From Treponema sp. (GTDB taxonomy: Bacteria > Spirochaetota > Spirochaetia > Treponematales > Breznakiellaceae), in NCBI GenBank assembly GCA_031263435.1, contig JAISFT010000154.1, positions 1 through 5,976 of the forward strand: a DNA stretch of 5,976 nucleotides, given 5' to 3'. The first letter of the stretch is position 1. Each line of letters opens with the position of its first letter. Under the pieces are notes generated by a model, which was given only the letters and a program-made list of their open reading frames with translations, made no database searches and was not told the origin of the DNA. Shown piece by piece: positions 802 to 1,625 of this stretch. The position numbers and the translations under genes are program-made.

Positions 802-1143
802 CTAATTTTTGGTTAAAGTAAAAGTTTCCCCATTAAAGACAGCCGTCAGGGTTTTACCGGAAAGGGTTGCTGTTTGGTCAGGTACACCCTCTTGCTTCAT
901 GGTGGCGATATTCCCGCTGTAGGTATAGGTACCTGATGCCTCCAGGTCGCCATCTACCCTGACCTCCCAGGTAGTTTCGGCTACTACGAGGGTAATAACA
1001 TGCCCCCCCTCTATGTTGCCGGTATAGGTCCCCACAAAGGGGTTGCTGTCATCCTCGTCTTTGCAGCCGGCAAGGCCAAGCCCAAGTCCCAATACCAGGA
1101 TAACGCCCAGTAGTACCATGAAAATACGTGCTTGTTTTCTCAT
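802..1143 (-). CDS. Small beta-rich lipoprotein, probably envelope-anchored
   Basis: This encodes 113 residues. It begins with a signal peptide (MRKQAR, then a hydrophobic Leu/Gly/Val stretch, residues 8-26) ending in a canonical lipobox LAGC with the lipidated Cys at 27. The mature part starts with the acidic KDEDD tether and continues as short alternating strands rich in Thr, Gly and Val: FVGTYTGNIEGG, ITLVVAETTWEV, SGTYTYSGN, ATLSGKTLTAV, FTLTKN. This pattern resembles the small lipocalin-like or META-like lipoproteins common in treponemes; no catalytic motif is visible and the ligand is unknown. AAGGAGG (complement of 1149-1155) lies 5 bases before the ATG. The gene diverges from an XRE regulator gene across a three-site operator region, so joint control by that regulator is likely (inference). 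No clear rho-independent terminator follows the stop; transcription would run into repeat copy A. Confidence 0.85.
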   Translation of the reverse strand: MRKQARIFMVLLGVILVLGLGLGLAGCKDEDDSNPFVGTYTGNIEGGHVITLVVAETTWEVRVDGDLEASGTYTYSGNIATMKQEGVPDQTATLSGKTLTAVFNGETFTLTKN

Positions 1144-1213
1144 ACAAGCCTCCTTGTGATGGTTTGATGGTCCTGTTTTTGGTCCATCTTTACTGAAATA
1201 TCAGTATTTTACG

Positions 1214-1242
1214 TTTATGTTACACCAATATATCAGTATGAT
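1214..1242 (+). promoter_or_regulatory. Putative sigma-70-type promoter of the XRE regulator gene
   Basis: TTTATG (1214-1219; three of six consensus positions) is followed after 17 bases by TATGAT (1237-1242; five of six). The expected start near 1249 gives a leader of about 29 bases. The promoter overlaps the leftward lipoprotein promoter almost completely, so polymerase could probably occupy only one of the two at a time. Confidence 0.45.
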
Positions 1243-1245
1243 CAA
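1217..1245 (-). promoter_or_regulatory. Putative sigma-70-type promoter of the lipoprotein gene
   Basis: On the minus strand TTGATC (1245-1240) is followed after 17 bases by TAACAT (1222-1217), each matching four of six consensus positions. The expected start near 1210 gives a leader of about 67 bases. The spacer contains operator site 2 almost exactly, so a bound regulator would block this promoter. Confidence 0.45.
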
Positions 1246-1277
1246 GCATAAAATACTGAGATTGCTGTATTTTTTTT

Positions 1278-1625
1278 ATGATGGGGATGAGTTTCAGGGA
1301 GAATTTAAGGGTCGAACTTGACTACCTTAACCTGACCGTTAAAGAACTGAGCGCAAAAACCGGCATTGCCAAGAAAACCCTGGATTGCTATCTGGCGACC
1401 AAGGCTACCATGCCGCCGGCCGATACCGCGGTAAGGATAGCCAACGCCCTTTCGGTATCGGTTGAGTACCTGGTTACCGGAAAAAAAGACGAAAAAAGAA
1501 CCCTGCCCCTGCCTGCCGATGACCACACTATCAGGTCAATTATCCAGGTAATCCTGACACTCAACGCAAAAGACAACGAAATTATCCTTGAACTGGCAAA
1601 GATTCTCAAAAAACAGGCCACCTAG
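1278..1625 (+). CDS. XRE/Cro-type helix-turn-helix transcriptional regulator
   Basis: This encodes 115 residues. The N-terminal half is a Cro/C1-type HTH domain: FRENLRVELDYLNLTVKEL (residues 6-24), second helix about 20-28, turn at Gly29, recognition helix about 31-39 (AKKTLDCYL), then PPADTAVRIANALSVSVEYLVTG (46-68), a strongly typical ending for this domain. A polar linker (69-80) leads to a short amphipathic helix region (about 83-113) that could dimerise the protein; no metal-, ligand- or protease-type domain is seen. The start is ambiguous: ATG codons at 1278, 1281 and 1287 are all in frame and none has a good Shine-Dalgarno, since an eight-T run precedes the first, so expression may be weak. 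It diverges from the lipoprotein gene and has three dyad sites upstream, pointing to autoregulation and control of the lipoprotein (inference). A 5-bp stem AAACC/GGTTT followed by a T-rich stretch at 1641-1660 is at best a weak terminator. Confidence 0.88.
   Translation: MMGMSFRENLRVELDYLNLTVKELSAKTGIAKKTLDCYLATKATMPPADTAVRIANALSVSVEYLVTGKKDEKRTLPLPADDHTIRSIIQVILTLNAKDNEIILELAKILKKQAT

Follow-up and report, generated by a model that had tools for sequence, protein, structure and literature searches.

The window, by which we mean the whole 5,976-nucleotide stretch of Treponema DNA analysed here, contains a gene for a small lipoprotein (113 aa; 802..1143, minus strand; lipobox LAGC, strong 6/6 Shine-Dalgarno (SD) site) and, divergently oriented, a gene for an XRE-family repressor (115 aa; 1278..1625, plus strand), with three copies of a dyad, TACTGAN4TCAGTA, in the interval between them. 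We consider it likely, judging from sequence comparisons, that the locus is an autorepressed divergent switch with the lipoprotein gene as its presumed target, and that it is one cassette of a treponeme-wide family whose members have private operators. The layout, its conservation, the covariation of recognition helix and operator, and the export bias of the neighbouring gene can all be read from the sequences themselves.

Three dyads and the promoters around them

Scanning the window for TACTGAN4TCAGTA with up to 3 mismatches gave O1 (TACTGAAATATCAGTA, 1191..1206), a perfect dyad with 0 mismatches; O2 (CACCAATATATCAGTA, 1223..1238), with 3 mismatches and one good half-site; and O3 (TACTGAGATTGCTGTA, 1254..1269), with 2 mismatches. 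None is assigned a strand, and there is no fourth match at ≤3 mismatches elsewhere in the window. Their centres (1198.5, 1230.5 and 1261.5) are 32 and 31 bp apart. At least three matches at any spacing turned up in 5 of 200 shuffles of the window, and a triple spaced 29-33 bp in none of 3000 whole-window or 20000 intergenic Markov shuffles, the latter test being post hoc because the pattern had been taken from the data. The scan and the shuffles bear out the positions and spacings given in an earlier note on this DNA.

A leftward promoter facing the lipoprotein gene can be read from the sequence, with TTGATC as its -35 (1240-1245, minus strand) and TAACAT as its -10 (1217..1222, minus strand), and O2 falls within its spacer. 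The -35 is part of GATCAAG (1240..1246, listed with the minus-strand promoter), a 5/7 match to the TGTCAAG that serves as anchor in the family described below, and weaker than in most relatives. In the other direction a -10-like TATGAT (1237..1242, plus strand), again read from the sequence, overlaps the leftward -35, and a -35-like TTTATG is legible at 1214-1219; a generic sigma-70 scan of positions 1000-1500 returned 0 sites. O1 would thus lie just past the expected leftward transcription start, and O3 just past the rightward one, ahead of the XRE start.

The XRE protein

Scores above cut-off for Phage_CI_repr (28.6; cut-off 22), HTH_26 (26.3; 22) and HTH_3 (23.4; 23) place the protein among XRE/Cro-C1 helix-turn-helix regulators, HTH_19 (24.9) staying below its cut-off of 30.2. 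It consists of a P22 c2/SinR-like DNA-binding domain, with AKKTLD as residues 31-36 of the recognition helix, and a C-terminal helix pair that probably holds dimers together. P22 c2 and 434 Cro were among its best fold matches, and a PDB sequence search with alignment A1 (43 XRE relatives) gave 0 matches. Neither a ligand domain, nor a peptidase domain, nor a conserved partner gene was found for it, and Pfam detects in the 115-aa protein no S24 peptidase domain of the kind found in LexA-type cleavable repressors. A toxin-antitoxin pair was rejected, given that the HigA-type antitoxin model TIGR02607 scored 20.7 against a cut-off of 47.7 and that the neighbour is a lipoprotein.

By homology, translation most likely starts at the ATG at 1281, with 1278 and 1287 as alternatives. 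The three in-frame ATGs at 1278-1290 have no SD site, and the same holds for relatives: an SD-like site (at least 4/6) precedes 4 of 123 family XRE genes, fewer than in shuffles (11/123).

A family of relatives

Searching with the XRE protein gave 1026 relatives at E ≤ 0.001, the closest named ones, among the best 120 of the 1026, belonging to Spirochaetaceae and Treponema, including T. primitia (69%). The single protein as query found no locus in a collection of species genomes and A1 found 48; 118 of the 195 genomes of the same taxonomic family matched A1 at E ≤ 0.001 with 1-23 copies each, some of these matches being weak and possibly other XRE genes. A profile scan of regions from matched genomes yielded 180 distinct members, a non-random sample biased to high scorers, of which 161 were usable once 14 co-directional members (genome G012) and 5 with too little upstream sequence had been left out. 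Up to 23 family matches fall within one 2.8 Mb assembly (G012), and one plasmid record, from Treponema saccharophilum, contains two places matching the family. A 62% relative (L009) lies on a contig filed as Candidatus Fibrimonas termitidis, a non-spirochaete, and represents either horizontal transfer or a mis-binned contig.

This distribution bears on whether the locus could be the remnant of a prophage immunity region in which a CI- or RstR-like repressor was left behind. The Phage_CI_repr score points that way, as does the NCBIfam RstR model NF041951, which matches across 105 residues (4-108) at 35.4 bits, far below its curated cut-off of 80. Against this, the 9 window proteins scanned include no phage gene, a pattern scan of viral contigs and a search of 50,697 phage records turned up no relative, the divergent gene at most loci is an envelope rather than a phage gene, and a match, if sometimes weak, is carried by more than half of the genomes of the taxonomic family. 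We therefore rejected such an origin, which seems very improbable.

Conservation of the promoter and operator layout

Among the 161 relatives, 116 have TGTCAAG at ≥6/7 within 18-70 bp before the XRE start (~9 expected from shuffles), 107 of these at 38-46 bp; with looser anchoring, 123/161 have a TGTCAAG-like anchor at a set distance from that start. On the opposite strand the anchor reads CTTGACA, a -35 element whose leftward promoter faces the divergent gene, and a -10-like hexamer (at least 4/6) occurs 16-18 bp to its left, at the place of TAACAT in the window, in 110/116, compared to ~28 in offset controls. The columns just before and within the anchor read TAT-T-G-T on the XRE strand in many members and may be a weak -10 of the XRE gene; in 105 anchored promoters the rightward -10 columns have T at 0.66, A at 0.66 and a final T at 0.98, and no sign of a rightward -35 was seen in the anchored family promoters. 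Of the two opposed, overlapping promoters that the earlier note had drawn around O2, the leftward pair is thus strongly supported by relatives and the rightward -10 weakly, whereas the rightward -35 finds no counterpart in them. The placing of O2 in the leftward spacer, and of O1 and O3 immediately beyond the expected starts, agrees with both the family promoters and the window sequence.

When the 107 anchored promoters were each compared with themselves, perfect 6-bp-arm inverted repeats stood out at -40.5/-39.5 (0.47 and 0.46 per promoter), -9.5 (0.42) and +21.5 (0.40), compared to 0.01-0.03, 0.05 and 0.07 per promoter at the same positions between different promoters, and long-range matches connected all three dyad positions. 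The window has the same cassette features, its anchor being ~40 bp before the XRE start and its dyads near -40, -9.5 and +21.5 (at -41.5, -9.5 and +21.5). Looking for the triplet upstream of related regulators, as had been suggested, hence showed it to be conserved between divergent genes in the family.

Three like dyads were also sought with free distances (22-42 bp) in 123 promoters and their own shuffles: 34 promoters exceeded the 95th percentile of their shuffles (~6 expected) and 9 the best shuffle. In these 34 the O2-O3 distance was 31 bp in 24 and 30-33 bp in all, and the O1-O2 distance 27-33 bp in 31, with a mode of 30, shuffles being flat. With O2 and O3 fixed and O1 scanned, 81 cases were confident; O1 fell between -41.5 and -38.5 in 57 of them and was the sole best site in 39; mean symmetric pairs (of 7) were 4.64 for O1, 3.41 for O2 and 3.53 for O3, against a background of 1.79. 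Shared half-sites were adopted as the measure because symmetry counts alone separated sites poorly from shuffles (means of 8: O1 5.89, O2 5.23, O3 5.03, shuffles 4.64), all three sites reaching at least 6 of 8 in just 11/123. Even spacing, which had been claimed for all three sites, hence holds across the family for O2-O3 but not for O1-O2; likewise, the middle site is the weakest in the window but not consistently so in the family.

A cooperative, graded or bistable switch of the phage type, in which neighbouring dimers would touch on one helix face and leave the lipoprotein fully on or off in each cell, would be in keeping with three operators about three helical turns apart, as in lambdoid immunity regions, with the fixed 31 bp between O2 and O3 and with short C-terminal helices that could oligomerise. 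We nevertheless regard it as rather unlikely: there is a single regulator and hence no CI-Cro double-negative loop, the O1-O2 distance varies, and the rigid O2-O3 distance may merely stem from the two overlapping promoters.

Operator variation and target range

Operator letters vary among paralogues yet agree within one promoter and, in 105 non-redundant natural pairs, track the recognition helix more than any other stretch of the DNA-binding domain. This covariation of operator and recognition helix argues strongly, if indirectly, for binding of each XRE protein to its own operator triplet, and the binding to the dyads proposed in the earlier note gains support from the same pairs. The sequence TACTG...CAGTA resembles LexA-like boxes and could suggest that the dyads bind another factor, LexA-type or global, with the XRE gene as a bystander. 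A global factor would, however, see one sequence, and the operators differ among paralogues, changing together with the XRE recognition helix; we accordingly rejected a LexA box and give another factor very little credence.

A loose operator pattern scanned over 12 genomes hit 12 places (2 at family loci), the backward control 20 and a different pattern 9, which gave no sign of a wide regulon in these genomes. When the operator of a given locus was searched for in its genome, allowing up to 3 mismatches, G001 showed two places elsewhere, one with 2 and the other with 3 mismatches, each of them within a 225-codon open reading frame, the same for both; G009 had 6 further places at 3 mismatches (control 3) and G010 had 7 (control 0), so that extra targets are possible in G010. 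Near copies of an operator in the tested genomes are thus mostly, not solely, at its own locus. Similar operators among paralogues of the same genome were seen in 1 of 53 pairs, compared to 4.5 expected (P 0.04), and there was no difference in helix sharing (P 0.25) or in mean operator similarity (P 0.13); insulation of paralogues from each other within a genome is hence only hinted at.

In G012, the search with the operator of its own locus brought up a second triplet and a further site near that locus. On contig 41 of G012 (L192, 1480-1720) a complete-looking triplet and promoter precede a lipoprotein gene: two sites, separated by 63 bp as O1 and O3 are in the window, enclose a TTGACA/TATATT promoter, and on the opposite side an XRE-like frame ends after about a dozen codons. 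The further site in G012 lies between lipoprotein and outer-membrane-protein genes adjoining its own XRE locus. In L005 one XRE copy is shortened; it has operators, and its divergent gene is related to the one beside the intact copy. These may be duplicated cassettes that lost their repressor and are governed by the intact one.

Genome G012 also has many copies with an AKGTLD-type helix directly behind co-directional outer-membrane-protein genes (L016, L019, L021, L026-L030, L034, L036, L039, L041-L043), which at five inspected loci are mostly preceded by lipoprotein genes; no operators were found for these copies.

Divergent genes and flanking DNA

The divergent gene is mostly unrelated between loci, yet usually exported. 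In 111 members the divergent proteins form 77 clusters, 64 of them single, and the genes downstream of XRE form 102 clusters of 109, lying on the two strands in 53 and 56 cases; because these downstream genes are unrelated and have no strand preference, the XRE gene is a unit of its own. Based on the longest ATG frame, a signal-like start is found in 59/98 divergent compared to 6/58 downstream genes, a lipobox in 24 compared to 0, and an SD site in 68/98 compared to 21/58. Among the 110 divergent proteins searched, Pfam finds outer-membrane barrels (8), LpoB (8), CsgG (7), BspA-type leucine-rich repeats (4), glycosyltransferases (4), GtrA (3), MBOAT (2) and others.

The window lipoprotein matches nothing in Pfam or NCBIfam and has four relatives besides itself, the best at 73%. 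This relative and a 96% relative of the XRE protein are each on a 1701-base contig, probably one and the same, and the lipoprotein would then be evolving faster than the repressor. To the right of the XRE gene lie thyX, a nucleotidyltransferase-like gene, a GNAT gene and a gene for a small membrane protein. The lipoprotein-XRE cassette is flanked by an inverted pair of palindrome-rich intergenic repeats (486-635 and 2127-2276; ~150 bp, 86% identical), and stretches resembling this repeat and the adjoining intergenic DNA also occur in L153, L013, L098 and L044. The repeat may be a dispersed element, or it may allow the intervening 1.5 kb to invert or move.

Discussion

In the autorepressed switch that we favour, the XRE protein would bind, as a dimer, the three dyads upstream of its own gene; O1, over the lipoprotein transcript start, and O2, in the promoter spacer, would jointly silence the lipoprotein gene, and O2 and O3, overlying the weak XRE promoter, would hold the repressor low and steady. 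Since O1 is the best dyad, the target should close before the repressor shuts itself off, and an XRE mRNA without an SD site should keep the repressor level low. The switch would open upon release by a signal, and each cassette, set next to a different gene whose product is usually exported, would pair its own recognition helix with a matching triplet. Binding, repression, the order in which sites fill and release by a signal are what we infer from the layout.

Several points weigh against this reading. The anchor is missing at the expected place in 38 of the 161 members, and the 14 further members of G012, co-directional behind outer-membrane-protein genes, have no such upstream region. Conservation of the anchor columns is partly built in by the anchoring, and 89 of 123 promoters do not, singly, stand out in the triple search. 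The XRE protein might, moreover, act mainly as an activator at one of the promoters, working from O2 in the manner of lambda CI: the family has no recognisable rightward -35, and the XRE promoter might therefore need help. We think this improbable, because O2 in the leftward spacer and O1 and O3 past the starts lie where a bound protein normally obstructs RNA polymerase.

Phages provide known examples of autorepressed XRE switches with three operators. The RstR operators in the rstR-rstA region of CTX phage number three. A dimer of dimers of RstR is described as repressing the rstA promoter (PMC8402870), and the rstR-rstA intergenic region as having multiple operators (PMC3323433). Like RstR, the window protein is a small XRE-type repressor with one domain and no peptidase, set among divergent promoters; unlike RstR, it is chromosomal, controls envelope genes in the proposed scheme and has many paralogues with private operators. 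Lambda operators are spaced about 24 bp apart, and the 31-bp spacing seen here is larger; unlike lambdoid repressors the protein has no cleavage domain, and opposite it, in place of a second DNA-binding repressor as in the CI/Cro pair, is a lipoprotein without a Pfam match. Three related operators between divergent promoters, here inferred from sequence, are shared with lambdoid regions and with the phi11 immunity region (PMC3991615). Unlike Bacillus SinR/ImmR, the window XRE gene has no SinI-like partner seen beside it, and its operators belong to a single locus, not to an integrative element or a biofilm regulon; unlike for the controller (C) proteins of restriction-modification systems, the window has no restriction-modification genes. 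In Treponema denticola, TrtA (TDE_0127) is a 104-aa XRE regulator with a reported part in the oxygen stress response, whose excerpted description makes no mention of an operator triplet (PMC12724145). We found no description, in the open-licence PMC literature, of a chromosomal XRE family with private operators at envelope genes.

Such a family, whose neighbouring envelope genes are mostly unrelated to one another, allows well over a hundred repressor-operator pairs from nature to be compared side by side. If our reading is true, these pairs would make the natural code of XRE recognition helices readable and supply a stock of repressors and operators that are possibly mutually orthogonal. A more speculative extension, to which we attach little weight, is combinatorial surface display, in which a few to about twenty insulated cassettes per genome would each hold one envelope gene on or off, so that cells of a clone differ, helices and operators having diverged after duplication against cross-talk. 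Altogether, the family would offer a testable idea of gene-by-gene surface control in treponemes and their relatives.
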